Origin: Polytrichum commune
Taxonomy: Eukaryota; Streptophyta; Polytrichopsida; Polytrichales; Polytrichaceae
DNA length: 64,000 nucleotides
Direction: 5' to 3'
NCBI GenBank assembly: GCA_950295325.1
Contig: OX485807.1
Coordinates: 26,943,666 to 27,007,665 of the forward strand
The position numbers and the translations under genes are program-made. The number at the start of each line of letters is the position of its first letter. The stretch's first letter is position 1. Shown one piece after another: positions 4,474 through 58,562 of the stretch. The notes under the pieces are model-generated. The model was not told the DNA's origin, searched no databases, and saw only the letters and a list, made by a program, of their open reading frames with translations.

Positions 4474-5728
4474 ATGGCCACGAGGGAGGAGGATATGATT
4501 TTAGTTTTTTTTGCCTTCATGATGGTATTTCTCACATTTCCAATTCGTAGAGCGCGTGTGCGACCAACATTAGAATTGTTGGATGGAAGTGTAGGGGCTA
4601 GGTATTTTCCTTTAATTGTTGTTTATTCGTGGATGCTACGTTTCCCGCAAAGATTGTAGTGGATACAACCGAAACAAAATATTCATTATGATGTTGTTGA
4701 GGGAGATGTGTGGCATACTACCCCGGATATGTTAGATCGGAAATACCGGATGACCTATAGGATGAGTTTTCTAGCATTTGAACAGTTGGTTGCCGAACTA
4801 ACACCATTTTTGCGTCCTACTGCGCAGATGTTTGTCAGGCCTCCTATACCCATTAGGAAGCAAGTGTGTTTAGTTATATACCGATTAGTCCATGGTTTTT
4901 TTTGCAAAGCCATGAATATGTTGTATGGTTGTGGAGAATCTACTATTAGAAAATATACCCTAATTGTTTGTAGAGAATTGTCTTATAGAAATGGATTATT
5001 TGGTATGTACATTCACGCGCCTAGAGGGCATAGAGTAATGGATACTATCCGTAAGTTTAGGGATCTTACCGGCTTGCCCAATGTGGTGGATGTTATAGAT
5101 GGCACCCACATTCCTTTGTCTACTATGCCTCAAAAGGGTTTAACCCCTATGCCTTGTGATTTTTTCAATAGAAAAAAGTTTCATAGTGTATTATTGCAAA
5201 TAGTGTACGATGCAAAGGAATTTTTTTTAAATGTGTGTGCAGGACAGCCCGGTGGAGTGCATGATACCGCTCAGTTTGCTTGGTCCAAAATCTATACGCA
5301 ATTGAGGACACGAGAGATTTTACCAGAGCCAGTTTTGGAGATTGGTGGAGTAGAAGTTCGACCGTATTTGCTTGGAGATTCCGCCTATGCTAAACCGTCT
5401 CTATCTGCTGAAGAATTTTAAGCCCAGTGTCAATGATTTCAGGTGTCAAGATAAAAGAAGGTTTGATGAGTCTTTGAATTCTGGCAGAGTTGTGATTGAA
5501 CAAACTTTTGGAGCATTGAAGAATCGATGGAGAATTTTGAAAAATTTGAATATGGGAGTAGATAAAGACGCTACAATCACTCTTGCGTGTTGTATTTTGC
5601 ATAATTACTGCGAGATATTCTCAGAGCGAGTTTCATTGCCATACAATTTTGATCAACGTGCCGATCATTTTGTTGGAGTACGTAGGGGACCTCTAAGAGT
5701 ACTGGGGATGGTCATGCTGGTAAAGTAA
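4474..5728 (+). pseudogene. Harbinger (HARBI1-like) DDE transposase, disrupted
   Basis: This encodes a transposase of the IS5/PIF/Harbinger DDE family, which cuts and pastes the element at TWA targets. The conserved order is visible: a helix-turn-helix-like N-terminal part, the first Asp in VVDVIDGTHIPLS, the second Asp in QPGGVHDTAQF, GDSAYAKP, and the Glu in VVIEQTFGALKNRWRIL. Two lesions break it. An in-frame TAG at 4657-4659 separates MATREED...RFPQRL from the main body. A one-base frame change near 5390-5400, just after GDSAYAKP, moves the catalytic Glu segment into another frame. Downstream to 5728 the frame is open. With both lesions no full enzyme can be made. The partner Myb-like ORF at 7763 remains open. 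Confidence 0.85.
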
Positions 5729-7762: not shown

Positions 7763-8548
7763 CTACTTATTTAGATTTTGCATTACACTTGCAAAAAGAC
7801 TTGCCATCCTCTCCTGTGATGCTTGAGTCAGTTTAAACATCTCCAACTCCAACTGTCTATTCTCTTTCTGCATTTCAATAGCTGCCTCTAACTTCAACTC
7901 TTCAATTCTACGGGTAGACTCACAAAACCAATCCAGAGAAGCTGCCATATCATTTGACAATCTTCTCTTCTTGACAGGTTGTCCCCGGACTCCAGGCAAG
8001 TTTGCAGCTCTAGTTCGAGGAGAATCCGGTTCCTCCTCTCGACCCTCTTGTGTTGCCTCTTTTTCTTGAGATGGAACTTGTTCTTCTACACCCACATGTT
8101 CGCCATTGTCCATCCCACCGGGCACACCATCCGCCTTGGTGGTACCAGAGAGTACCGCATCGATGATGTTAAACCAAATCCACTGGGATCCTGCATTGTC
8201 ACCCGTGACATTGTGGAGTTTCTTTTCCTTGTGATAGTGCCGCTTGAGCTTGCCCCATTTGTCCCTAATTTGACTCCAAGTCCTCCTTGCCTCATTAGGA
8301 TGCTCCCTCAAAATTTGCTCCCTAATCCTCTCCCAATTTTGTTGCTTAAACACAGTTGTGCCAAAGCTCTCAATCCTCTCCTTCACCAATTCTATGAGAA
8401 ATTTGGTGGCACCATGGGTCCACTCCCTAGCCGGAAGAGATGAGGAACCTAAACCCGAAATTTCGTCATTGGTAGGGAGAGATGGAGTCCCCAAAATTGG
8501 AGGGGATGCAAGTACTACTTTCCCCAAATAACCCAAGCCTTCCTCCAT
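7763..8548 (-). CDS. Myb/SANT-like (trihelix-type) protein of the Harbinger element
   Basis: An uninterrupted ORF of 261 codons from the ATG at 8548 (MEEGLGYLGK). An in-frame ATG lies further upstream at 8686, but the intervening residues are low-complexity His/Phe-rich and unlike the family, so I prefer the inner start. Residues about 39-130 form a Myb/SANT-like DNA-binding domain, with spaced aromatic residues in NWERIREQI, RRTWSQIRDKWGKLKRHY and WIWFNIID. An acidic spacer and a basic VKKRRLS patch follow. The C-terminus, with many Glu and Leu (RRIEELKLEAAIEMQKE...), is predicted to be coiled coil. In plant Harbinger elements this second protein binds the ends and helps bring the transposase into the nucleus. 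Here it is intact beside a broken transposase. A co-opted host gene cannot be excluded. Confidence 0.7.
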   Translation of the reverse strand: MEEGLGYLGKVVLASPPILGTPSLPTNDEISGLGSSSLPAREWTHGATKFLIELVKERIESFGTTVFKQQNWERIREQILREHPNEARRTWSQIRDKWGKLKRHYHKEKKLHNVTGDNAGSQWIWFNIIDAVLSGTTKADGVPGGMDNGEHVGVEEQVPSQEKEATQEGREEEPDSPRTRAANLPGVRGQPVKKRRLSNDMAASLDWFCESTRRIEELKLEAAIEMQKENRQLELEMFKLTQASQERMASLFASVMQNLNK

Positions 8549-8960
8549 GATTAAAAAAAAAAAATGCCCAACTTGAGGGTGTCGTGGAAGAAAGAAAGCC
8601 CAAATGTGGGTGTGAATATGAGAGAAGAGAAATGGGTGTGAGTATGAGTGAAGAGGAAGTGAATGATGTGGATGTTTAGTGTTCAAACTTGTGCTTAAGT
8701 ATGTTTTGGGGAGGGGATGGAGAGGGGTGCTAAAGTTACTTGTCTTGTCTTGCTGGGCTCATTAGTTACTGACAGCTGGGGTGAGATTTTTAAAGGACCT
8801 AGTGGCGGAGGGCGGCGAAGCCTGCAACCCCGGGGCTGGGGCGGAGGTCCGCCCTCGCCGGCGGAGGGCAGAGGGGTCTGTTCCGGCCGGATGAGATTCA
8901 TCCAGCCCGCCAGGCGGAGCGGCACAGAATGGCTCATGTGCGCGGCACCAATGTGGTCCC

Positions 8961-10850: not shown

Positions 10851-10858
10851 TAAATACT

Positions 10859-11779
10859 TACCACTTGGCCCCTATATGTTTGTTATTGATTCATCCATAT
10901 GTAACTTCAATAGAGTAATTTAGCATAACATTATTCATATCTATGACAGTGTTATGTGGGATTGACAATATTCCACAAAATGTTTTCCATATTTAGTATG
11001 AATGTGGGGATGTTTTGTGGAATATTGTCACTCGCACAGAACATTGTTATGGATCTGAATAATGTTATGAGGGTTTTTGAGCTCGATTTAGGTGTTAATT
11101 AAGATACAACATTAGCAGTCTACAAAGTGATCAACGTTTTCATTTTCCCTTTGGTAGGAGTTTAAAATTTGCCACTTGGCCCCTATATGTTTGTTATTGA
11201 TTCATCCATATGTAACTTCAATAGAGTAATTTAGCATAACATTATTCATATCTATGACAGTGTTATGTGGGATTGACAATATTCCACAAAATGTTTTCCA
11301 TATTTAGTATGAATGTGGGGATGTTTTGTGGAATATTGTCACTCCCACATAACATTGTTATGGATCTGAATGATGTTATGAGGGTTTTTGAGCTCGATTT
11401 AGGTGTTGATTAAGATACAACATTAGCAGTCTACAAAGTGATCAACGTTTTCATTTTCCCTTTGGTAGGAGTTAAAAACTTGCCACTTGGCCCCTCTATG
11501 TTTGTTATTGATTCATCGAAATTGACTTCAATGGAGTGATTTAGCATAACATTATTCGAATCCATGACATCTTTTGTGAGACTGATAATATTCCACAAAA
11601 TATTTCCCATATTTAGTCTGAATGTGGGGGATAATCCGTGGAATATTGTCACACAAAACACTATTATGGATCCGAATAATGTTATGAGGGTTTTTGAACC
11701 CATTTTGGGTGTTAATGAAGATACAACATTAGCAATCTACATAGTGATCAACATTTTCATTTCCCCTTTGGTAGGAGTT
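10859..11779. repeat. 311-bp tandem array, three units, with palindromic core
   Basis: The phrase ccacttggcccct recurs at 10861, 11172 and 11483, giving an exact 311-bp period twice. Units 1 and 2 are almost identical. Unit 3 is clearly more diverged and slightly shorter. Each unit contains an inverted pair of about 50 bp (cataacattattca ... and its complement) matching the palindromic element at 663-766. No protein is encoded. Confidence 0.85.
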
Positions 11780-11887
11780 ATGAATGTGTTGGTTTTGAAG
11801 TATGCCTACATCAACCTCAAGTGTACGAGAAGCCTAATCTAACTCTCTCAATGCACAAAGCCATGCATTTGAGCCACATTTTGAACC

Positions 11888-40525: not shown

Positions 40526-43500
40526 ATGGCAGGAGGAGGCGTTGTCTCGATGGGGGAGGTGAAGCACTATGATGGCAGGACCACATTCTTCGTCCTGCTC
40601 ACTTGTGTCCTGGCAGCTTCCGGAGGCCTCATGTTCGGCTACGATGTCGGAATCTCTGGTACTTACATTCTTGACCCCGGCTTTGCCAACTTAAAACACG
40701 GCCTAGACATTTCTCCACTAAATCATCATGTCAGAACACAACCATGTAAGAAATCCCGGTAGCTTACAGGAAAGCAACATAAAGTGGTGTCAATGGAACC
40801 GAACAAAGAATCCAGCGACCACGAGCTTGACGAACTCCTGTCAGGAAGGTGGTACATCGAGACTTAAGGTTAAGATGACATTTGAAATGTGTAATCGAGC
40901 AAGCAAACCCAGCTCAACATGGTGGATTTAGTCACGGCACAGTTTTCTTTAGTAAATCACCGGCCATGTCTTATCGAGATTTTAAGGCTAAGATGACATG
41001 CAAATGTGTAATCCGGCAAAGGAGCTCAGGACAACATGGTGGATTTGGTGACGGCACAGTTTCTCCAATAAGTCATGATGTCTCAACACAAATCTATAAA
41101 AAAAAAGCACAGTATCAGCTTGCAGAAAAGCAACAGAATGTTTTGTCAAATCCTTCCAGGAAGGCAGTTGAAAATTCAACGACATTGAGAGGTTAAGATG
41201 ACACTCAACCGTGCAGTCGAGCAAGTAAGCTCACCTTATCATGGCGGAATAATGGCTTTGATGTTCAGGTGGAGTTACGTCGATGGACGATTTCTTGGGG
41301 AAGTTCTTCCCACAGGTGCTTAAAAAGAAGCTTGCAGCGAAAGAGGACGCATACTGTAAATTCAATGACCAAAAACTGCAAGCCTTCACATCGTCACTCT
41401 ACCTTGCGGGCCTGGTCTCCACCTTCTTCGCTTCCTGGGTGACCAGAAGGTACGGCAGAAAAGCCACCATGCTCAGTGCCGGTGTGGCATTTTGCGTAGG
41501 GGTGGTTCTCAATGCGGCTGCACAAGAGATTGTGATGCTCATCCTCGGTCGTGTCTTGCTCGGTTGTGGTGTCGGCTTCGCTAATCAGGTACTTATTTTA
41601 CACCGTTCCATCAGATTACACATTGAAGGAATCCAGTACTTGAATGAATGCCTGAACGTTTACTTAACCTGTTTCTTTATCCTTTAGAGAACAGTCCTCG
41701 CAGCTGTTGATTTTTGCTGTATGTGTGTGTGAAAAAAGTGCTTGGATTGAAATCCAGGAAGAAATTTTAAACTCTTTCTGGCCGTTGTAAAAACAGACTA
41801 AAACCCTGTATGTACTTAAAGAAATGCCTGATTGACTACTTAACTTGTTCCTTTCTTGCTTCGAGAACAGTAATCTCAGCTGTTGATGTTTACAGTGTGT
41901 GTAGAAAGTACTCGGATTGTAATCCAGGAAAAAAATTCCACTCCTTGTGGCCATTGTAAAATCGGATTAAAATCCTGAACGTACGTGAATGAAAGCCTTA
42001 ATGTCCACTTAACCTGTTTCTTTATCTTTCAGAGAACTGTCCTCGCAGCTGTTGATGTTTGATGTGTATGTGAAAAAATTCTCAGATTAAAATCCGAGAA
42101 GAAATTTTCAACTCCTTGTGGTCGTTCAGAAACAGACGAAAAGCCTTAATGTAGCTGAAGAAATGCCTGATTTGTCTACTTGCCTATTTGTCCTCGCAGC
42201 TGTTGATGTTTGCTCTGTATGTGTGTGAACAAAGCAAATGAATATCTCAGCAGAACTTCGATTGAAATCCAGGAAACATATTAAATCAGATCAGCCGTCA
42301 AACTCAAGGATGTTCCGGACAGATTCCACTATGTACAGATTAAGCAAACAATATCGGTTTGACATGCATACTTGTCGGTTTAATATGGTAAATGAGAGAT
42401 TGAAACCGTGTTTTGGCAGGCCGTCCCACTCTATCTCTCGGAGATGGCGCCCTCAAAGTGGCGGGGAGGATTGAACATTCTGTTCCAGTTGGCAGTGACG
42501 GTGGGCATTCTGTTCGCAAACTGCGTCAACTATGGAACAAACAAGATGAAGTCAAACGGGTGGCGAGTGTCACTCGGAGTTGCTGGTTTTCCTGCAGTTC
42601 TCATCACAATTGGGGGTCTCATCCTGCCAGACACACCAAACAGCCTGGTACAACGGGGGCATCTCGAAAGAGGCAGGCGAGTGTTGCAAAAGATTCGTGG
42701 CATAGACAACGTGGATGTGGAGTTCGACGATATTGTGATGGCCAGCAACGAGGCCGCACTCATCAAAGACCCATACCGAAACGTGATAAGGCGCCATAAC
42801 CGACCACAGCTGGTGATTTCGACACTCCTTCAAATTTTCCAGCAGTTCACAGGGATCAATGCCATCATGTTCTACGCCCCTGTGCTGTTTCAAACCCTAG
42901 GGTTCGGAAGTTCTGCGTCCCTGTACTCAGCAGTCATCGTGGGAGCTGTCAATGTGGTCTCTACCTTAATCGCCATCGGTGTTGTCGATCGACTTGGCCG
43001 CCGAATACTACTCTTGGAAGCTGGCGTCCAAATGTTCCTCGCCCAGGTACGAGAAATCATCACACCTTCATATTCATGATAAATCTATACGAAGAAACAT
43101 CCATTTCTCTGTTAGAGAGAGAGAGAGACAGAGAGAGAGAGAGAGGCTAGAATTTAGAGAAGTCACATAAGTTGATGCATGATTTTCCTCTCTCACTCCT
43201 GAGCCTCATCTTTCATTCATATGTAGATTGCACTTGTAATCACTTGACACTAACTCGTGTCAAGATACTAGAACATTTCCAGTACTTGGTTGTTCATGCA
43301 TCTACTCTAAAGCTTAAGTTCCTCATCTAGAATGTCTAAGAACACTTGACACCTATTGGTGATTGAGATGACTTAGACTCTTCGAATTCCAAGATTCTCT
43401 TTGTTTTCAGAATTGGAAGAACCACCATTTCTTTTTTGATGTTTTGAGCGACTCAAACCAGGAAACCAAGTTGGGGTTGAGCAGACGGTGACAGCCAAGT

Positions 43501-44977
43501 AGAGCACCTAACACTTATTGTGTAGATGCTGTGAAAGCAAAGTTCGCATTCCGGCAGTATAATGAGAGTAAGCGAGTGTAAGTAGTAATGGCATTTTAAA
43601 GACTGTTACTTATAAAACATTAGTGCAGGTAATATAACGCAAGAAGGAAGGGAATGACTCCAATGGGCACAAACCTTACAAAGCTTAAGAGAATTAATTT
43701 ACACATATAAGAACTTAACTTTCCGGCACGAGGCTTACATGTAGCTAAATTCTTTGAAAACAGAACTAAAGTTTTTAGCCTTTTCCAGATGTTGTATAAC
43801 TTATTAGGTTCAGTCAATCATGATGACTTTCAACTACTTTGAGCCTGATTCTGAGAGTAACTGGTTTCAGTAAACAATCGACAAACTCACCTAATCTTCT
43901 GGTCTCACCAAAATTTAGCAAGCAAAATGCCGCATGTCGATATCTCGAAGTTTATAAGATGCGGTGAAAGCAAAGTTTGGATTCCGACAGTGCATTTGGA
44001 GTAAGTACTTGTTGCTTACTTGACTACGAGGATTTCACTGTAGAGAGGAAGTTTGATTAAGATGGTCAAACCGGCTAATTCATTCATCGGCATCAACAAG
44101 TGTAAGGCAAAGAAAGTCCTCTTGAAAATGGATAATTTTTTCGACGCCGGTGATGTGGATGAGAGCCGAAAGGTAAGAGATGAAGGTTGCGCACTTAAGG
44201 GAGCGGGTCTTGACATGTTGGACTGGATGCAAGAAAGTGAAAGGGATCTCGGGTGGACTCGCTTACTTGGCCCGAGTTCATGGCATTGCTTATTGATCGA
44301 TTCACCCGGAGTACGGTATTATGCGAGACGAAATTGCGTGATTAAGGTTGAAGCAAACGGGAGGCCTTAAAGACCTATGTACAGAAATTTAACGCAATTT
44401 TGAGTAACCAAGCAGCACGAAACAAGAAGAAAATTGGCTGAATCATTTGAGTGATGTTGTATCTGTGCAGGTGGCGCTTGCAATCATCTTGGCAGTGGGA
44501 ATGACATCCAACAACACCTTACCGACAGCGATGGGAAGCGGTTCGGTCGCCTTGATTTGCATCTACATCTCCTCGTTCGCATGGTCCTACGGCCCTCTGG
44601 GATGGCTAATACCAAGTGAAATCTACCCCCTGGAGACACGCTCCGCAGGGCAGAGTATCACGGTGTCCACCAACTTGCTCTTCACATTCTTGATTGCACA
44701 GAGCTTCTTGTCAATGTTGTGCTCCATGAAATGGGGCATCTTTTTGTTCTTTGCCGCCTGGGTGGTGATCATGCAGTTCTTTACCTTCTTCTTCATCCCG
44801 GAGACGAAGGGTATTCCAATTGAGGAAATGGATCTTGTTTGGACCCGGCACTGGTTCTGGAAGCGCTATGTCCCAGTCTCTCACCACAATATGGGGGTGC
44901 CAATGAGCGATGTGAAGGCCAACAAGCTTGAGAATGGAGCAAACGGAACAAATGGAGCAAATGGACACCAACTTTAG
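40526..44977 (+). CDS. STP: Monosaccharide/H+ symporter, plant STP family (4 exons)
   Basis: Exons 40526-40658, 41269-41588, 42420-43046 and 44471-44977 join in frame with GT-AG introns to 528 residues, the usual STP length. The product is a 12-helix major facilitator that imports hexoses with protons at the plasma membrane. Family marks are [13 protein letters not shown] (Asp40, the expected proton-coupling Asp), YCKF in the lid (Cys74) with a partner Cys in [27 protein letters not shown] (Arg139), [53 protein letters not shown] and [11 protein letters not shown]. The start MAGGGVV is the standard STP N-terminus. The C-terminal tail has repeated Asn-Gly ([12 protein letters not shown]). Introns 1 and 2 contain tandem repeats, and a decayed duplicate of the gene's end follows at 45355-45640. 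The precise sugar preference cannot be told. Confidence 0.93.
40860..41260 (+). repeat. Degenerate repeats in STP intron 1
   Basis: A block beginning ttaagatgaca and running through a cg(a/g)gcaa(g/a) segment to caacatggtggattt occurs near 40868, 40984 and, shortened, 41193. All lie between exons 1 and 2. They are non-coding. Confidence 0.6.
41640..42235 (+). repeat. Tandem repeat in STP intron 2, four units
   Basis: The phrase cagctgttgat recurs at about 41701, 41877, 42046 and 42197, with units of roughly 150-176 bp. Each unit carries a pyrimidine-rich stretch ending in AG (for example ttctttatctttcag) before that phrase, so it looks like a splice acceptor. Unit 4 is truncated. Confidence 0.75.
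43110..43145. repeat. (GA)n microsatellite in STP intron 3
   Basis: A run of GA dinucleotides interrupted once. It lies 60-100 bp after the exon 3 donor. Confidence 0.85.
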
Positions 44978-46298: not shown

Positions 46299-49200
46299 CT
46301 ATTTGAGTTCATAATAGCGGTTTGTTTTCGGGTCATAGTAGCAATCTAAAGTAGGGTCATAAAGTAGATCTAAGTCCTCCTCCAGTCGTCCATTAACATA
46401 AAGACCTGCAGGCAACGAAGAAAACTTCAAGATTAATCAAACAAATAGGTAACTCCAGCTACATTGGGCAATTTTTTCTGTTACAACAATCTGTCCTTGA
46501 CCATGGCCATTCCAATTTGTCCACAGCTCCCCAATAATAGGCTCCCTTACAATAAATTATGGTCTATAGATCAGTTTGCATCAATTTCTTTTCTGACTTG
46601 AAGTGGAAGACACCTTACTAAGCAAATTTAGACATTGTACAACAATCGAGTTATAGGGTGCATTGAATATGCCTATGATGATAACCGTATTAGCATATTC
46701 ATTACCATATCCCCAGATACATTCCCTTCTGTTAACCACCAGCACTACACTAAACATCTAATTTAGTGTGGCCCACACTATTCATCATCAACCCACATTA
46801 ATTGTCTCGCAATCGCTGGGTGGCAACTAGAGCGGGTGTCACAAGACACTTGGTGTTACATGACAAGCCATGAGACCACTTTAATTAACATGCCACAACA
46901 ATTTTAATGCCACGCTACTTAGATTTGTAAAGTACACTTATAAAGAGGCTAAATCAAATAAAACCAAAACGCTTTGAGGAACACTGAGACAATCTACTTA
47001 CAGCCGTTTTGTTGACTTAAAATCATCTGGTACCCATATTTGATTGATGCCAAAGTCACACATTATGTCAATCACACAAGCCTGGCTAAGAGCAACTCCT
47101 ATGGTCACTGTAAAATGATTCTCCCAATAATCAGCTTTCAATGTTTTTTGGGCCAATGTTTGCAAGCTCATCCCACCCATAAAGTTCATAAATATATATC
47201 ATGTTCATTATCCGCCAATAATTGAGAGTGACAACCTGCTAAAGTGGACATTTGATTTTTGAGGGTGGCTAGGGGTTTAGAAAGTTGCCTCTCTCTCAAT
47301 AATCGTTGGCAATAAAGATTTGGATAAACTTTGGGCTTTGTGGGTGGGAAGTGTATGCAACTTTGCTTCCAAAAACCCTACAAAGCCGATTCTTGAGAGA
47401 AGCAATACACAGTAGTTGTTGAAGAAGCTCTAACAAAAGATGTGAATAAGGATCAGATGAATCCAAGGTGAAGAAAAAACAATACCTTCCCTTTCTGAAC
47501 TTTCCTTATCTTGCTTTGCAGGTCCTGCTTCTTCAGTTTCCAATGAGAAGGAGGCAACTGAATGTTGTCCACAATTCTCTGTGAATTGCCAGGAGGATGA
47601 CAAAGTTGGAATATCTCGTGTCTCCAACTGGTTATTACCAACTGACAAATTGATGTCCCTGCAGCCCATATTCAGAGCTCTGAGCAAGTTTCAAAACTTC
47701 AATACTCTGACAAGCCAAAGTATCTATTTAACCCTTAATGTCGCAAAAGCACCGACAGGGCTTTGGGGGCAAGAAAAATGAAATTTTGTTGTTCATGACT
47801 TCATTTTTTTTGTCATTTCTTAGAATAGTTACCCTATATCTCTATTTTTTTAGTGAGATTCTCCGATTGAAAAAATAAGTTGAATTTAGGGTGCAATACA
47901 ATCACATACCAAAAGGAATACAAAGTACAATATCTAATATTTATAGCCACCATTTCTACAAATGATTGTAATTTTTTTTCTTTCAGACTATGTTGTACAC
48001 GTGTTAGTTTTGGGCCTTGGGACACAATTCATCAAATAATACCTTGCTGTGAATTTTCCCTGCATATTTGCACTCAAAGTCTTATGCATATCTATCTCTC
48101 AACCTCATTGTGTAATGTTTCAAGTGATTTGTAACAACTTTTCTTTCAACATAAACACCAATCCAGCATTGAAAGTCTTTCATTAGAAGTCATCTCAATA
48201 ATAAAAAAACCACCCTTTGAAATTTAAGAGTTAAGCACTGCTTTGTCAACTAATCCAGCAGGGTCAGATTGTGTAGATGAACCATTTTGACCCTACTTGG
48301 GAAGAGTACGGACCTTGGTATTTTCAAATGTGGCCGAGAAATTGTTGGAGACAATGCCAGCTCTTTGTTCTGATAGTCGAGACCACTGTCAAAGTTGAAA
48401 GAGTCATGGTCCCTGACATTTCCTGTTGCTGAAATTGAGAGATGACTAGGTGATGTGTTACCATCATCATCTTCCTCCTGCAAGATGCAGAAATGTGCGT
48501 GAGTCTGAAACTCCAGGAATATTGGATGTTGAAGAGCAATTACAATTCCATTTAAAATGTGTCATTTGCAATGAGTCAACTTGCAAATTGACATACCTAA
48601 TTAGGATGAAGATTGCACGGCAAACCTGATCATTCAATGTCCAGTGCTGCTGCTCAAGGCTCCCAAACTCTTCATCTGTCATTGTCAGAGAAAGAAAAAA
48701 TATTACACTTATTTCTCCAGCATTTTTTAAACATCAAACTCTAATTTCTGCTTATATCACCAGGTTTACCAGGCCTGTTCTGTAGAGTCTTACACAGACA
48801 CCCAGGAGGTAGCTCAAGAGTAAAGATTCTTATATATTGCAACAGGAGGACACATCTCAGTTTTGACAATGTCATGATAAGACCCCCTTCACACTAGAGT
48901 TCACATTGAGAGCTTGAACTTGCAATTAACGGGACTTTGATACGTGAAGTTGACAAGCTTTCATCCAAAGCTCTCAATAATTTGAGCCAGTGACCATGCT
49001 CGACATGCCAGGGAATGCCTGGAAGCCCATTGCCTTGGGGCCCACAAAATGAAAGGTCAAGCTCTCAACAATTTCTAAGCTACCTTGTGGAGGTACCTTA
49101 GGATTCTTGACACCGAGTTTATCAAAAATGACCGAGAGCTTGTCGTAGTAGTTCCACATATTTCCTTCAAGGTGGCATCTAAGCGTTGTAAGCCCGGTAG

Positions 49201-52200
49201 AAAGTTTAAGCTCTCGAGTTGAAGGCTCAAGTGTAAAGTGGATTGGAGTAAACAAGCACTCTTATGAGGCTCCTCATTGCCAATGAGAACGCTCCTCTCT
49301 TTGAGCTCTTAAATCAAGCTCTAGTGTAAAGGAGGCCTAAGTCTACAACATGCAAACCTACAAATACATAGAAGAATGAACTGGGTATCCCTTCGGTGGA
49401 GTCGGTTACGGCTGGTAGTCACAGTGGCCCAGCATGCCCCAGGCCGCCATGGCTACCGATCGGCAGTAACCTGTATCCACTAAAGATTACCCGACATAAC
49501 ATGTTTTCTCCAGATCTTGAGCCGTCAATCTCTCATAGCCGAATGGAACTTCACCGTTCATTTGGACCCCGCCAATTCTGCCACTTCTGCCCCTTCTGTC
49601 CCCATTTCCTTATTATGTTCGTTGTAGGTTCGGAGGCGTGTGGACGGGAGGATTCTCTGGTTACGGACTTTAACCCCTATCCTCTCTGCCAATCCAGAGA
49701 TGCCACGAAGGCAAGAGATCTGAAGAAACCGGTGCTGAACTGATGGAAAATGAAGCTATGAGCACAAATAATACCGTGTTCGCCCTCTTTGTTGTCTGAA
49801 CATTCCAGGTTCCAGGTGATCCCTGAATCATCTTCATCATTCAAGAAAGTAGAGGTTTCCGGAAACGGTGCGAGCAGATCCCCTGAATCACCCTGATGAT
49901 GTTGTTGTTGTTGTTGAGAGCTCCCCGAGGACCAGCTCTGTCCCACACTGAAATCATCATCCGACATTGCTGCAAACGCCGAATCTTGAAACACAAAATT
50001 GTCATCATTTCCCAAGTCAAACTTTTCATGCGCCACTCCCACAGGCCTTGGTCTGTCTTCGATAAAATTGGCAGAACTCTCCTCCGAAACTCGATTCACC
50101 AACTCTCGCAACGAGAGAGGGTTGTCCAAAATACCCGACGAGTCCTTATTTAATATCAGAGATTTGAGGCTCTGCTCATCTGGCGAAGAGTGTTTTGAAG
50201 AGCAAGAACTCAATGTGCCACTCGCTGGCGACCCGGGAGTATCTTTGTTTGGTGCAATGGGGTCATTGAGCTCACCGGGTTTACTAAACAGAGACAATCC
50301 TTCAAAGACACGCTCGCTGAATGACTTCTCTTCATTTGCGTCGTCATCAATGCAGCTGGTCCACCCGCAAGGGGGGCTCTCAGGTGGCGAGTCCATGTAC
50401 CTGGCCCAGGTACTCAACTCCCGTATTATATGGTGCAGGTTTTGATTACTTATAACGAATTCTAATGCAACATGAAGTCTTATGAGTTGTGTTCTAGTCT
50501 AGGATATTCTTGTGGTCCTTGCATTGAGGAATTCAAAACATCTATCCATAAAAAATTGATCAATTATTTACACGACAAAGTGCTTTCAGAACTAAAATGC
50601 ATGACCTTTTTGTATACACGGGTCATAGGACAAAAACTACCCAACAATTTGGACCTTATGTTGAACTTTGAAAAGGAATATTTGGAATCCAACTTTTGGA
50701 AGGGGCTTCCCTGTACTCATTGTGGCATTATTTATGTCCAGACGAGGTTTAGGAGGGTTACTATAGGGTTAATTCTGCAAGCACTATAGCTGTGAAAGTA
50801 ATCAACACTGGAAGATAATAAATGCCAAGGTTCTTTTAGTAGTAAAATCTGGATGCAACTTTTTTGGAGCTTTTAATTTTGCATATTGTTTTCTTAAATT
50901 GAACAAACCCAACCTCCAATAAGTTTAAATGCCAATAACCCCTGCATAAATACACGAGTTGTGGAATACCTGGTTTGCCTATACTCTTTCCCTCGACTGC
51001 TTTCCATGTACGAATCCCGCCGTGTGTATTTCCCTAACCCTGCCGCAGCTTGATCACGCTTCGTGGTCGATTCGTCCCTTTTCTTGACCACTTTCGTCCA
51101 CTTTCCTCCAGGAACCGATTTGTGTGCATCCATCCCAACATCCTCATCGACATCCTCATTTTCCAAGAAACTTGGATCCGGTGGCTGATATGTAGGAGCA
51201 ATAACTTCCTCATCAACAGGCTTTGAGCATTCCGTCGCAGGATGTAAAGCATCAAACTCTTTCATAGTTAATGATGTTAGTGCAGCGATACCCCCCGGCA
51301 CAACATCCTCTTTCGCTGCATCCGACGAGAGTTTCAAGTCGGATGCTGCTGCTTCTTTCCGTAAATCGTTGTTTACGATGTTGGCACGTTTCAAGAGGCT
51401 CTGTACAGTCTCAGCTTTGAGGTCTCTTCTCTGCTCTTGTGTGATCGCAGGTGCCTCATGAACGTTTCGAACGAGGCGGTCTTTCGAAAAACCTCCGACT
51501 GTGTGAGGTTTGCTGTCACCTGGAAGATTGGTGTTGATTTGAACTGTGGACAGTGGCAATGGCATCCTGGACCCAAAAGCAACATGGACCTGGAACAAGA
51601 ACCAGAACGAACCAATTTACTCAAGGATCTGAAGAATACTACTTACCCTTGATTTTTCAAGCTTAACTCCAGAATTAGAGCCCAACGAACTGGTACACAC
51701 AGATATCCTGTGGATTTTAAAGTCGAAGAGCTACTTATCATGCATGATTTGGACCTCAAGAGATTGCTGTCATTCACCTGCCGGGGTTCCAATTTGTTCT
51801 GTCCTGGCTTTCGTGCAGTCAAGCCATTGTGAACACCTGCATGGTGACAGAATTACTGAGCTATGTGCATTCGAATCATCAGATTAACTATGTGCTCACC
51901 TTCTAATTTGCACAATCGTCAAGAAGATGGTAATAGAATTCTGCTTTAGATCAATGGGACTATTCGTCAAGAGGGGAGTTGGTCCACAAATTAGCAATTT
52001 CTTTCCACTTGTGATGCAAGCTCGGAGGTAATGTTTGAATTTGAATGAGGAGCAACCTATTTCGGTTCATTGAGGACCAAAATAAGTTTGACCCCTCCAT
52101 GAACCGTTGTAGAATGTTCTTCATTCAAATCTTCACTCTACCTCCAAGCATGCCCCGAGAACTTACCGTGTTGTATGCAAAACAACCAATATATGCCTAT

Positions 52201-55200
52201 GTGACTACAACTGGAGGTTAGTACATATGATTACCATAAGGAGAGTCGGCGACGCCCGTTATAGCCATCTGCAGAGCTGCCATATCCAGAACTTGGATGG
52301 TAGCATCCACAGCTAAGGCAAACATGTGTTCTGGAGGTAAAGATTCTTCACCTCCAAACTCCACCACCCCACACGTACCACTACCTAGTTCCACTAGCCG
52401 GCTGCGCATGGTGAAAATCTTCCGCAGCTTGCACACTGGCCCCAGCACTATCACATCCACAGACCTGCCCTTGCCACTGGTCTAAGTTACTAAGGTGCCA
52501 CAAATCCTTGGCCACTAAATGCTCATGATTAGAGTTTACATCAGGGTTCGGGTCCGAACAACTTGAGGTCCAAAGCACTCTTCAATGGACATTACTTCCA
52601 GACTTGAGACTGGAACCAAGCTTGAGGATTCGTCTCTCAAACAGGTTTGGCCCAACAAAAGTTGTATGGAAAGTGGTGTCACATTGGCGCCACTCCGTTC
52701 TTTCACACTTTGGACTCGGACCCTACAGAGTCCAATCTCATATTCCATGGTACAGCTTTTGGATGAGTTTCAAGGGCCTCACAATTTCATGGTGATGGCC
52801 CTTGGCCATAGTGTAAAGTGGCCCTCATATATCAACTAATCAAATTGTCTAAAAGGAGCTAATAACACAATAAGGACTGTGTAGACACCACTAATACAAA
52901 GGCTTGCACACTTCTGATAATGTTCATTTGAACAACTGGAAACAGTAGGTCACATGCCAATAAAAACTTGACCTCCCTACATACAATGTGATTTGTTCAG
53001 TTGCTGGTATTTGGTTCCAATTGTAACACTTGCTTACATAACAAAGTAACTTCTAAGATAACCTCATTGTTCAGAATATGCATACAAGATCAAGGAAAAG
53101 AATCCTTGCCTTTAAACAATACAGAGGGTATCCAGGGCTAACACATGTAACAGGATTCATTCACAAGGTTTGACCATTACCGGAAGCTCATACCCCGAAA
53201 GATGTGGTAGAAGAGGTCTGCCACATGTATCGACAAACTGAGCCAAATATTACGGGTCACCTGAAGATTCAACCATCCAACCCTATTAATATGTGCAAGT
53301 TGTAAAAAAAAAAAAACAACTACCTCATTCTTGACTGCTATCCACAGGTGAATTACAGTACTACCTTAGCACTTTAGGCATTTGGCTTGCCAAAATGGAA
53401 CTCTCCTCATGCCACATCAACTTTTTCACAACCAACCATTGCATGACACATGGCACTGCACTCAAGAAAATAGTTTTGTTTTGCTGAAACTGAGAACTCC
53501 AAGGATTAAAGCACCACAGCAATGTACCAGTGCCAATGGGATCTGACAATGAAGTGGCGTAGATTTAATGTCATTAAACGATGTTGAGAAGTACATCTTT
53601 CGCCTTGTATTTGCTGTATCCGTGACCCTGTAAATACAACAGGAGTTTACTCCTGCCTCAGTCATACATACATGTGGACAGATGGCAATACATTGCAAGC
53701 ATAATTCTAATCCAGTTTTAAATCATCAAATTTTCCAGCAGGTAGCACTTGATGCTTTGTAGGACATGGTAAAACCGTGCCAATCTGCGGCGTGAGCTTT
53801 ACAAGCACAAAGCGCACTTCAGGGCAAGACAATGGAAATTACAAAATATGTTAAATTAATTGTGGCATTAACATCAATTTGCCACATATTTATCATGGGT
53901 CACTTTAATACTCAAACTCTTTGAATTTCATGCGCTGTCTGTTACAAATTACTGGAGCCTCTTGTCTTTGTGCCACCTGCCATATTATCTCTGCCACTTC
54001 TCATACTTTACTGACCCACATTAATCATATTGCCCACAATAATAAGCTGTACTGAGAAAAGGTGTCACTAGAAAAATAATGCTGCCCATGATATTAGCCT
54101 AATGTTCATTATCGTGGGTCGATGATTGAATAGTGTGGCCCACACTTAATCAGATTATTAGTGTAGGATGAGCGCCATGAGGTTTAACAGAAGCCCGTGC
54201 AAATAGATAGGTTCCACCTTCACCAAATAGAAGGAAACTCTACCTGAGCTCCAGTGACAAGTGTTGGCCTGCTGGAACAAACAGCTGAAACACCAGAAAA
54301 TGCTGTAGCAACTGTAAACCTGTTTCATGCTCACAGACTACATTATCAGAAATATGGCCTTCAAACCCAGCAGCCATAGGATTCTTAAGCACGTGTAAGG
54401 ACGACCTCTTTCTATTCTAGGTTCAAGAATAACAAATCAAGAATCAAGGCCCTTAAGTAAATGCATGAGTGCCGAGCATGGTCAAGTGGCAAGCTCATTA
54501 ATCGACACCTCATTGTTGCCTATCTTCGGACACAAAGCCTTCTTCCATCTATCAAGATTCAATTGAAGAGGTGCGTTCCCAATGAAAAGATGCTAGGTTT
54601 TCTGGACTACCTAAGAAATATTCCATTTGCACTTGGAACCTAAATCGGCTACTCAAGAATGTTATAAAAGGCTGAGTGACTGCATCATCAAGTGTTTGTT
54701 GTCCAGGAGACGGTGTACCCAGGAATTTGTACGATCAGATGTAGTAGGCATCCAGTACATGTTTCGAAATCACACCTAGTCAGGCACATACCAGCTTTGG
54801 TGTCATCTTTGGGAAGTTGGAGTTTTGATGCCGGTCCACCATTGAGGCTATACACATAGCCCTTGACTGTTTTATCATACACCTGCAATCACCACCAGTC
54901 CAAGGCTCTGGTGACATCGTGTGACTCTTTTCTCAAGCTTCCCTACACACTCGGGGCATTTAATGGATCCCCTTATAACGTGTGTAGGTATGTGACGAAA
55001 TACGTGAGCCTCCCAAAAAGTACTTGCAGAACCCAGATAAATAACAGGTCGAGAAGTACTGGCAAGGGTGGTCCATCTGCAATGCAGGTGATTCAGTCCA
55101 AATGTTCAGAATCTAAGGTATGTGAGCCTTATGTGGTGAGTCTTCTTAAACGGACAACTATATTTGAGTTGTGTATGGGAAGGCTTGTAGTTAAGAACGG

Positions 55201-57250
55201 ACACCAAAATGACAGCTATTACGATACCATTGGATAATGTGCTCAGAAATATAGACACCATTCTAGGTTCACTAATCAACACAATGGGCAGGGCTTGTGG
55301 GAGATCACATTGCGAGAAAGAGAATCTTCACTTTGACCTCTTATTAAGTTTGCACCTCATGAAACTCCGATTCTGAAACCTGAAATGACAATCTTCGTGG
55401 GTTGCAATTGCTAACCAGATGAAAGAATTCCTGATCCAATCCAACGGCCAAAATTGCACGTGGAGTTGAAAGTCCCCACAACAGGGCCACATACCTCACT
55501 TCTGATTGTTGGTTGGGTGAAATCCCAGACGGGTAACAAAAGTACTTGGGCACTCCAGGTAGAGGGCCCTTCCTCATACCCAGCATGAGTCTACGCCCTC
55601 TTGACATTTCTGAAAGTCACTTTTTATGAAAAGACACCACATAAAAAATCAAGTGTCTCAGATTGACCTGAATTGGAGATGCCAGTCACAGAATTTTCCC
55701 TTAATTTATGAAACACTCAGGATGTAAACCTAATGAAGAGGAGGACACACCTTCTGAACCCCCTTGCCGCAAACTTTGCAGTCGCCTGTCGGATTGCTTC
55801 CCTGCAATGCCAGAAGTCCAACAACATTTGTCAAATGCCTCATCGTTTCTCTGTTCAAAAACATCCAAGTCGCAATTTTCCCAGTGGCTGTCACCAGTTT
55901 TTGGGCTCAACTTAGGGTAAGATGAGTGTTTCAAAATGATCAGCAAGTGACATATCTGACGAACCTTCTGTCATTCTAAAACAACCCACAAATGTTGCAA
56001 ATATGCATCAGACATTCTTGACAAATCTTTCACAACTGCTGCAAATTCACAAGAAATAGGGTACACAAAACTATCTGTGTCTATATTTTGAGCACATTGT
56101 CCAATCTGTGTGGCACTATGTAGGTATCGTATGCGATATTCGAAATCAACCAACTTCAACATTCTTACCTATCTCAGAGGTTATCAATCAGTTGGCATAG
56201 TTGCCTCATGACTGCCAAAACTGCAGCAAGGAGTGTTGATAGAAAAATGGACCCCTGTAGGTAAGATGGACAAAATACTCGTCCTACAAGAATCCTTCTT
56301 CGGTTCAGTTCACAGATTTTTGATCGACAACGCTATAAGACTTCACTGGAAGCTCAGAAAGGTTGACAATGAAAGGCACGAATGCAAATTCAAACTTAAC
56401 ATGACATGTAGAAATACGAAATCTGCAAAGTATTGCAGAATTTGTAATGGAGATGACACAAAAGGCATTAGCCATGTGGAGGACATACAGGAGGAGAAGG
56501 TTATGCAATAACAACCTTGACCTCGACTACCAAGACAAGAAACGCAAGAATTCAAATAAAGGATGGGGCAAGAGAACATTAGAAAGCGAAGTCCAAACTT
56601 GAAGAAGAAAGGTTTTTTACAATCACTGCATTCAAGGGGAGAAGAGAAGGAAAAAAAAAAACATAGTATCCGGAAGGCTTATTAACCTAATGTTTGACCC
56701 TTCATCCTACCCTTCTGAGAATGTAAGATTCAAATTACATCATAAACCTAAAACCATACTACGAGTTCCAAAGCAGTACCACGAAAATGAGAACCACTAC
56801 GTAATCACTGAGTGATCAAATTGCGTTTGATGCCAAAAAGTGAATGAAAATCAAGGGAGGCAGACAAATAATGACTGAATGACATCGTCTCAAAATACAA
56901 GCAAGCAAGTAACCACCGTTGTTTCATGTTGAGCCAGTGTTGTTGATACTCTCTTATCCTATCCTCAGGGTTTAATAATTTTAATTCCAGTGCTACCTTA
57001 ACATTCAGCTAATGATTCGTTCAAACTTGATTCACCTCACGATTATTGAAGCACGAGATGAAAATTGCAACGCTATGTTTGGTGGGCAGTGATTCAATGT
57101 TGTGTGTAGTTGAATTAACGTGATTGAATCTTGAATGTGAAATCAATGTTGATGGTATGAGAATTTATGGCGGTTTGTCATGTTGTTGATTACTTGAGCG
57201 CTGAAAACGTTGAAGGAGGCGCCGCCTTGGTAGCGAGATCGATTGGCCAT
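46299..57250 (-). CDS. CFAP20DC: CFAP20 domain-containing protein homologue (CFAP20DC/C3orf67-like), about 15 exons
   Basis: Minus-strand exons: 57194-57250, 55751-55801, 54792-54882, 54244-54319, 53528-53627, 53181-53260, 52235-52464, 51755-51836, 51647-51689, 50970-51589, 49775-50400, 48626-48675, 48314-48477, 47486-47679 and 46299-46405. Phases agree at every junction, giving about 856 residues; the 51755-51836/51647-51689 junction is the least certain. The N-terminal 170 residues are a CFAP20-like domain: [82 protein letters not shown] and [12 protein letters not shown] all parallel animal CFAP20[10 protein letters not shown] marks a second conserved point. A long acidic, Ser-rich and Gln-rich linker follows, ending in [27 protein letters not shown]20 relatives act at axonemal doublet microtubules, so a sperm-flagellum role is inferred. 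A MITE sits in an intron. Confidence 0.85.
48881..49337. mobile_element. Harbinger-type MITE in an intron of the CFAP20DC-like gene
   Basis: 457 bp. The termini are gacccccttcacactagag at the left and, in reverse, ggcctcctttacactagag at the right. TAA flanks both sides (48878-48880 and 49338-49340). The interior has repeated gagagctt motifs. A diverged relative lies at 2036-2480. It sits between the exons at 49775-50400 and 48626-48675 and leaves the splice sites intact. Confidence 0.7.
52690..52817 (-). repeat. Diverged copy of the 58563-58700 MITE unit
   Basis: In the same orientation as the reverse of 58563-58700 it shares tttcacact, the atggtaca.cttttggatgag block and the final gtaaagtggccc. 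It lies in an intron of the CFAP20DC-like gene. No clear target duplication. Confidence 0.5.
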
Positions 57251-57734
57251 GTTGGAAGCGGAGGAATTTGGACTAAGTTACTCGGCCATAGCCATCATCT
57301 TCCTTCTTCAATTCCTCCGAAAGCTTAAGTACTTCTTCCAAGAACTCCCTTCCTTCTTCTCTCTATTCCCCCTCATAAGTTCCCACCAATCCCTTCTCAT
57401 TCTTGGCACCCACCAAGTTGTTGCTTTTCAAAATTTGTCTCTCTTGATACCAATAAGGTAGAGCTTCTAACTCCACATACGATTTTGGCCATTGGATCAG
57501 ATTGGAAATGGATGTCATCCGGTTAGCAACTGCGGATCACGCAAATTGTCACTTCCCACTTTTGGAATTGAAGTTTGTATGCTAAGATTAGGTATACATG
57601 CTCAAAGTTCAAAACATTCTTTAATCATGATAAACTATTAAATTTGGAATCCAATCGCATTGTAACAAGTGTATTTTCAGTGTTTGTTCTTGACTGAATT
57701 CCATGCCATATAGATCCCCTTCAAATATAGGTGT

Positions 57735-57965
57735 TTACATTAAATGTTGTATCCAGTGTCATCAATTCTATTTGTCTTACTCGATACTAATTATAAACTG
57801 CCAATGTAGTGTTGCTAACACTAATTGTAAACCCAACATTATTTGTCACTCCTTGTACAAAAAAGTGCAAGTTGGGATGATAGTACTTGTAAACTTATTC
57901 ATGAGAAGTATCATTAGAAAAATTACCATAGTGACATGGTACACCATACAACACTAGATAAAAAA
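57735..57965 (+). repeat. Dispersed tagtgtca-rich repeat, copy 3 of 3
   Basis: It shares tgtatccagtgtcatcaattc, tactaattataaac, gctaacactaattgtaaac, gtcactccttgta and the tagaaaaattaccatag block with 20545-21300 and 34750-35110. Confidence 0.45.
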
Positions 57966-58562
57966 ATTAGCATAGTTAAGAAAAAGAGACCATATAACGA
58001 GGTTCACATGTTGTACACTATATATATTGACGTGCATGTTGATAGGAGTGGTCTCCATGACCAGTCATGTAGCAACAAGTGTTATGCATGCCACCTTCTT
58101 TGGTGGGCAACCTACAGTTGCATTATAATTTACACAGTTGATGATGAATAGTGTGGGAAATTCAATTGGTCATGGGCTCTCAAGTGCCCCTAAACATAAA
58201 AGACCATGACACTTCAAGATTTCACAAACCTTGATTTATTACAACTCATTATGCAACACTTCATTTCTTGGTTCATATCATTAGTGATTCCCTCCAAAAT
58301 GACCCATTGTAGAAGATTCCATAGTACCTTTACCACTTCAACACTAATTAAACTATTGTTAGGAAAAACCTATTTTTTTGAAAATCATATTTTAATAAAT
58401 CCCAAAATTTAATATGAGGAATTTGATTTTTTTTCCTTTTAATCCAAAATCTAAGAATCTAAAATAGAAAGTCTAATCATGTATTGCCTATGTATAGCCA
58501 AAGTGGTAAGGAGACTATGGTACCTTGCTTTGCCTCTTCTTGGTCTTGCAACCCTCATCTAA

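Follow-up and report, generated by a model that had tools for sequence, protein, structure and literature searches.

The described proteins with a CFAP20 domain (CFA20, or DUF667) include CFAP20 itself, also named FAP20 or BUG22, and WDR90/POC16. FAP20 was described as a beta jelly roll situated at the inner junction (PMC6994238), and binding to microtubules and tubulin was reported for POC16/WDR90 DUF667 domains taken from seven species (PMC7500955). The transition-zone inner junction of mouse ependymal cells is made by CFAP20 alone, and the role at the basal-body junction that was proposed for the DUF667 domain of WDR90 has since been revised (PMC12218126). Four BUG22 copies in two clades were reported from the moss Physcomitrella (PMC3268115). 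Here we describe a CFAP20-domain gene of a different kind, probably the CFAP20DC type, from the moss Polytrichum commune, within a stretch of 64,000 nucleotides (assembly GCA_950295325.1, contig OX485807.1, positions 26,943,666 to 27,007,665), which is called the window throughout this paper. In proteins of the CFAP20DC family the CFAP20 domain is followed by a long extension that holds no clear known domain.

The locus encodes a protein of a kind that is known but has received little study. Among the literature matches listed for CFAP20DC (C3orf67), no title dealt with what the protein does or with its occurrence in plants. The human gene is listed among those examined in primary ciliary dyskinesia (PMC13410081) and, beside axonemal genes, in a male-infertility panel (PMC7602585), both being gene lists in which no function was reported; in a cattle fertility association study it is named once, for an intronic variant in a table, to which no weight was given (PMC9052698). 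Based on the evidence below, we consider it likely that the moss locus is a functional single-copy gene of this type, whose product would combine a microtubule-binding head with an OCRE-like, partner-capturing tail and act as a tether in the basal body or flagellum of sperm.

Gene model and the CFAP20 domain

The gene lies on the minus strand, with an ATG beginning at 57250 and a TAG finishing at 46299. The hand-joined model consists of 14 exons separated by 13 introns, all of which are GT-AG, and its phases all agree; the coding sequence of 2,505 bases specifies 834 amino acids, with no internal stop and a single terminal one. Both end points had been placed exactly in the preliminary description of this DNA, whose phase-consistent join was also borne out, while its count of 15 exons has to be lowered to 14. 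The splice sites were picked by hand with phase taken into account, so the agreement of the phases is partly by construction and is not independent evidence. The open frames that hold the large linker exons 9 and 10 measure 240 and 273 amino acids. Stop-free frames of at least 240 amino acids number five in the whole window, two of them in this gene, and 40 dinucleotide shuffles of the window produced none, the longest open reading frame being 216 amino acids. In each of the 14 exons the frame used by the model is open, and in 11 of them its codon-usage score is the highest of the three frames; the exceptions are exons 1, 2 and 8, and the win of exon 13 is narrow (-4.1 versus -4.2). The locus is a real, apparently intact gene that was well located by eye.

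The protein matches the Pfam family CFA20_dom (PF05018) with residues 5-171, covering positions 4-168 of the 185 in the profile (85.8 bits, E 3.9e-24; curated cut-off 24 bits), and the match spans exons 1-7. The CFAP20-like N-terminal domain claimed in the preliminary description was thus recovered by a profile search of the joined protein. The Pfam scan of the whole protein up to E 10 gave nothing beyond this domain and an OCRE match below its cut-off. When the protein was compared with PDB sequences by phmmer, seven distinct sequences were matched at E <=1, all of them CFAP20/FAP20 or CFA20 domain-containing proteins (E 9.1e-4 to 0.059).

Exon 2 lies in DNA that is partly copied elsewhere in the genome. 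The copy at 2.836 Mb on contig C3 (C3:2835898-2837089) is 88% identical to window positions 54978-56097 over 1,131 alignment columns, with a further 60 bases 87% identical to 56141-56200, and a second partial copy at 18.103 Mb on contig C2 (C2:18103093-18103870) is 85-90% identical to the exon 2 region. Exon 2 was the sole exon of the gene found in the 3.4 to 4.1 kb around the two copies. The C2 and C3 copies also have sequence in common outside the segment that matches the window, and a mobile element may therefore have carried the exon 2 stretch. Intron 2 also holds a dispersed repeat of about 380 bases (55114-55496), for which the best 40 of 4,074 candidates were mostly 74-77% identical over this length. 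The possibility that exon 2 itself is a repeat artefact was examined with the N-terminal 245 residues, which score 89.5 bits against CFA20_dom with exon 2, 76.8 bits without it, and 76.8 and 80.5 bits with it shuffled, in a test consisting of one deletion and two shuffles only. Since the domain match gains 9 to 13 bits from exon 2, that possibility was rejected, and exon 2 is taken as part of the CFA20 domain because the score falls when it is removed or shuffled. When the genome was searched with the complete protein, 15 scored candidates gave 15 matches at E <=1, 14 being the gene's own exons and the remaining one part of the C3 copy (C3:2836642-2836743); the gene is probably single-copy.

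These observations bear on the reading that the gene is decaying or mis-joined, with some exons, above all 2 and 11-13, unused and the protein not made as modelled. It could draw on the partial copies of exon 2, on the hand-chosen splice sites, on the weakest parts of the model, namely exons 11-13, which are without homology, and the unusual GTCCGT donor of exon 12, and on the codon-usage scores of exons 13 and 14, which are slightly below zero. However, 2,505 bases run without frameshift or internal stop and with all phases in agreement, exon 2 improves the domain match, and exon 14 holds a recognisable motif in frame, so that we regard this reading as quite improbable.

Based on its domain, the protein could also be a divergent member of the CFAP20/BUG22 or WDR90/POC16 kinds. 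The CFA20 domain is common to all three kinds, and all seven PDB matches are of the CFAP20 type. The genome contains three CFAP20-like loci (six exon matches among nine scored candidates) that are 86.2 to 92.5% identical to each other, whereas the 834-residue protein shows 19.4, 20.1 and 20.1% identity to them over 139 aligned columns, in a comparison that covered residues 33-176 and left out the first part of the domain. The CFAP20-type proteins among the PDB matches have 190 to 214 amino acids, with neither linker nor tail, while the moss protein has both; identity with CFAP20/BUG22 was ruled out on the length of the protein and this low identity. WDR90/POC16 resembles it in bearing an N-terminal DUF667 domain on a longer protein (PMC7500955). 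It differs in carrying WD40 repeats, of which none was found in the 834-residue protein by the Pfam scan up to E 10, and the protein is therefore not WDR90/POC16. That the locus is nevertheless a diverged gene of one of these two kinds appears very improbable indeed.

The name CFAP20DC comes from a comparison with a provisional sequence for the N-terminus of human CFAP20DC, to which the moss protein is 36% identical over 275 columns (E 3e-53). The alignment covers exons 1-8 and extends beyond the domain as far as the AFGS..PLS segment in exon 9; the CFAP20-like N-terminus and this segment make up the apparent likeness to CFAP20DC. The result agrees with the naming in the preliminary description; because the human reference is provisional, the name is a lead only, and the collections searched yielded no verified reference. 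The earlier identification of a CFAP20-domain protein with a long tail holds, and the protein is neither CFAP20 nor WDR90; its more specific name rests on the provisional human sequence. Relatives were also sought by pattern in contig collections of prokaryotes (57 stretches fitted, none confirmed) and viruses (three fitted, none confirmed, and none fitted the tail pattern), which are silent on the distribution of the gene among plants.

Linker and OCRE-like tail

After the CFA20 domain follow 663 residues, in which the scan of the whole protein gave only the sub-threshold OCRE match; a 278-residue piece of the linker searched separately in Pfam gave a weak Calcipressin match only (E 0.084). 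The linker proper, residues 263-796 (534 residues), contains 96 aspartates and glutamates, 52 lysines and arginines, and 67 serines. The long acidic linker of the preliminary description is therefore acidic overall, but not uniformly so, with net charges of -11 in residues 351-400, +6 in 401-450, -10 in 601-650 and -13 in 651-700. From this composition and the absence of a clear family match, the linker is probably disordered.

The C-terminal motif DLLYDP...YYDPKT, which had been noticed earlier, is present and can be placed more precisely, as it resembles half an OCRE domain. In the whole protein the OCRE family (PF17780) is matched by residues 809-832 with 18.5 bits (E 0.002), and the last 53 residues alone score 21.9 bits (E 1.8e-4), the curated Pfam cut-off being 24.7 bits. 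When these 53 residues were compared with 177,635 distinct PDB sequences, the sole match up to E 10 was the OCRE domain of RBM5 (E 0.8). An ungapped comparison of a 25-residue stretch of the tail with the corresponding stretch of RBM5 (PDB 5mf9) scored 64 with 11 identities, the highest score in 20,000 shuffles being 50, and the likeness consists of this stretch with its Y..DP..YYDP...YY spacing.

The register of RBM5 was derived from seven named residues, Tyr470, Tyr472, Tyr479, Asp481, Ser484, Tyr486 and Tyr488, which fit one offset (PMC5127646). In this register Tyr472, Tyr479, Asp481 and Tyr488 of RBM5 would correspond to Tyr815, Tyr822, Asp824 and Tyr831 of the moss protein, and Ser484 to Thr827, while Leu813 and Arg829 would take the places of Tyr470 and Tyr486. 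It was reported that Tyr479, Tyr488 and Tyr495 are crucial for the binding of proline-rich peptides by RBM5 (PMC5127646). Two of these three ligand tyrosines are kept (Tyr822 and Tyr831), short of the full set of an OCRE domain; the position of the third would fall past the C-terminus at residue 834. The moss tail thus differs from the RBM5 domain in its half length as well as in the exchange of two tyrosines for leucine and arginine. By the tests made, which compare sequences, the tail is OCRE-like but lies outside the OCRE family. AlphaFold, run without an alignment, predicted three short strands for the 34-residue tail (mean predicted local distance difference test score 75.8, predicted template-modelling score 0.42). 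With the same short model, one of 51 chains compared by VIA-align reached Z >=2 (Z 2.4), and this was a ribosome fragment.

Flagellar genes and the proposed tether

The company of the gene in the genome was examined through four flagellar families, all four of which are present: the stalk of dynein heavy chains was matched at eight places (19 matches among 27 scored candidates), RSP4/6 by five matches among 11 scored candidates, RSP3 by four among eight, and PACRG by eight among ten. At the inner junction CFAP20 has PACRG as its partner. A genome with dynein, RSP4/6, RSP3 and PACRG genes is expected to belong to a plant with swimming sperm. It was reported that many flagellar structural genes have been lost in Gnetum, conifers and angiosperms, and that Ginkgo lacks RSP3 among others (PMC9023351). 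The preliminary description had proposed that the CFAP20DC gene dates the lineage; by itself it does not, and the dynein, radial-spoke and PACRG genes tell more about swimming sperm.

The mechanism that we propose begins with the CFA20 domain, which is present. By analogy with CFAP20 and with the WDR90/POC16 domain DUF667, the CFAP20-like jelly roll at the N-terminus would bind microtubules in the basal body or flagellum of sperm, at or near the place where the A and B tubules join. At the end of the linker, which is long, acidic for the most part and probably disordered, the OCRE-like tail may capture a second protein, probably a proline-rich one, and in land plants this would take place in spermatids. 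The molecule would then be a tether that links the microtubule wall to another component. Because CFAP20 alone forms the transition-zone junction in mouse ependymal cells and the role of WDR90 has been revised, the exact seat proposed for CFAP20DC is tentative. A more general form of the proposal, in which CFAP20DC is a two-ended tether with its head on doublet or triplet microtubules, the aromatic half-OCRE tail grips a proline-rich partner and is a ciliary peptide-binding module outside splicing factors, and land plants retain the gene only where spermatids build basal bodies and flagella, is speculative and, in our estimation, rather unlikely to hold in full.

Several points weigh against the sperm tether. 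The OCRE match remains under the Pfam cut-off and the position of RBM5 Tyr495 is lacking; a Foldseek search of the PDB with the short 34-residue tail model gave nothing at E <=0.001, the best of its 34 rows having E 3.8 and none being an OCRE domain. With an identity to CFAP20 of only 19-20%, the domain may not have kept the contacts with tubulin. Stalk matches alone are no proof of a motile axoneme, since the dynein stalk family takes in cytoplasmic as well as axonemal dyneins and does not tell them apart. The DUO1-type motif RRCSGTT (PMC6290024) was not found at 57251-58250, which are the 1,000 bases preceding the start codon, and in the window it is rarer than chance, with 17 matches versus a mean of 28.4 in 100 shuffles, so that the promoter lends no support to expression in sperm. 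Another form of the motif, AACCGYC, was set aside; it has three matches versus a mean of 5.57 and does not occur in the main text of PMC6290024.

The lack of the upstream motif would also suit a CFAP20-domain protein working outside the flagellum, for example on cytoplasmic microtubules or in a nuclear role, which was retained in the way BUG22 was in plants without cilia. BUG22 was reported to be among 21 ciliary-conserved proteins that land plants lacking cilia have kept, and one of its land-plant copies may have been recruited to other roles (PMC3268115). That the tail resembles a domain of a splicing factor, RBM5, points in the same direction. No RNA-binding domain was found by the Pfam scan in the 834-residue protein. 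With all four of the flagellar families sought present in the genome, no loss of cilia would have forced a new role on the gene, and we hold a non-flagellar function to be unlikely beside the sperm tether.

If the flagellar gene set is read rightly, this plant has flagella only in its sperm and offers a clean setting for finding the job of CFAP20DC, because loss of the gene there should affect only spermatids. The OCRE-like tail supplies a concrete, testable binding hypothesis. The gene is a useful candidate for sperm biology and makes the protein testable in a plant.

Exon coordinates and other features

Table 1. Exons of the CFAP20-domain gene, in window coordinates.
Exon	Content	Position	Strand	Evidence
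1	Start codon; CFAP20 domain, first part	57194..57250	-	Model; domain from residue 5
2	Within stretch partly copied on two other contigs	55751..55801	-	Model; domain score gain 9-13 bits
3	CFAP20 domain	54792..54882	-	Model; Pfam match
4	CFAP20 domain	54244..54319	-	Model; Pfam match
5	CFAP20 domain	53528..53627	-	Model; Pfam match
6	CFAP20 domain	53181..53260	-	Model; Pfam match
7	End of the CFAP20 domain (CKLRKIFT) and next segment	52235..52464	-	Model; Pfam match
8		51778..51836	-	Phase-consistent; within alignment to provisional human sequence, weakly aligned there
9	AFGS..PLS segment and start of linker	50970..51589	-	Model; open frame; first residues align to provisional human sequence
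10	Acidic serine-rich linker	49775..50400	-	Model; composition; open frame
11	Linker	48626..48675	-	Phase and frame only; without homology
12	Linker; donor GTCCGT	48314..48477	-	Model only; without homology
13	Linker	47486..47679	-	Model only; without homology
14	OCRE-like C-terminal tail and stop codon	46299..46405	-	Model; OCRE comparisons; tail structure model

The adjoining gene, on the plus strand at 41262-44974, is that of a sugar transporter, with exons that match PF00083 at up to 215 bits, and stands tail to tail with the CFAP20-domain gene. Farther away in the window are a DDE_Tnp_4 transposase frame on the plus strand (4660-5418) and a Myb/SANT-like frame on the minus strand (7766-8758), which together we take to be a PIF/Harbinger-type DNA transposon pair, and a region in which pieces of 300-600 bases are locally duplicated with 86-92% identity, together with inverted copies of about 147 bases (10851-11780).

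In the genome at large, a scan for linkage of ribosomal RNA genes scored the best 47 of 15,430 candidates for 5S and the best 39 of 8,957 for 5.8S. The highest coordinates on seven contigs sum to 393 of 408 Mb, which suggests seven large chromosomes. Chlorophyll a/b-binding genes gave 58 matches among 74 scored candidates, a large set that marks the genome as that of a photosynthetic eukaryote and a plant. Fourteen uninterrupted matches of equal score lie within about 95 kb at C5:1751760-1846160 and form a large tandem light-harvesting array, and two more, with an E-value nearly as in this array, were found at C7:40324947-40327742.

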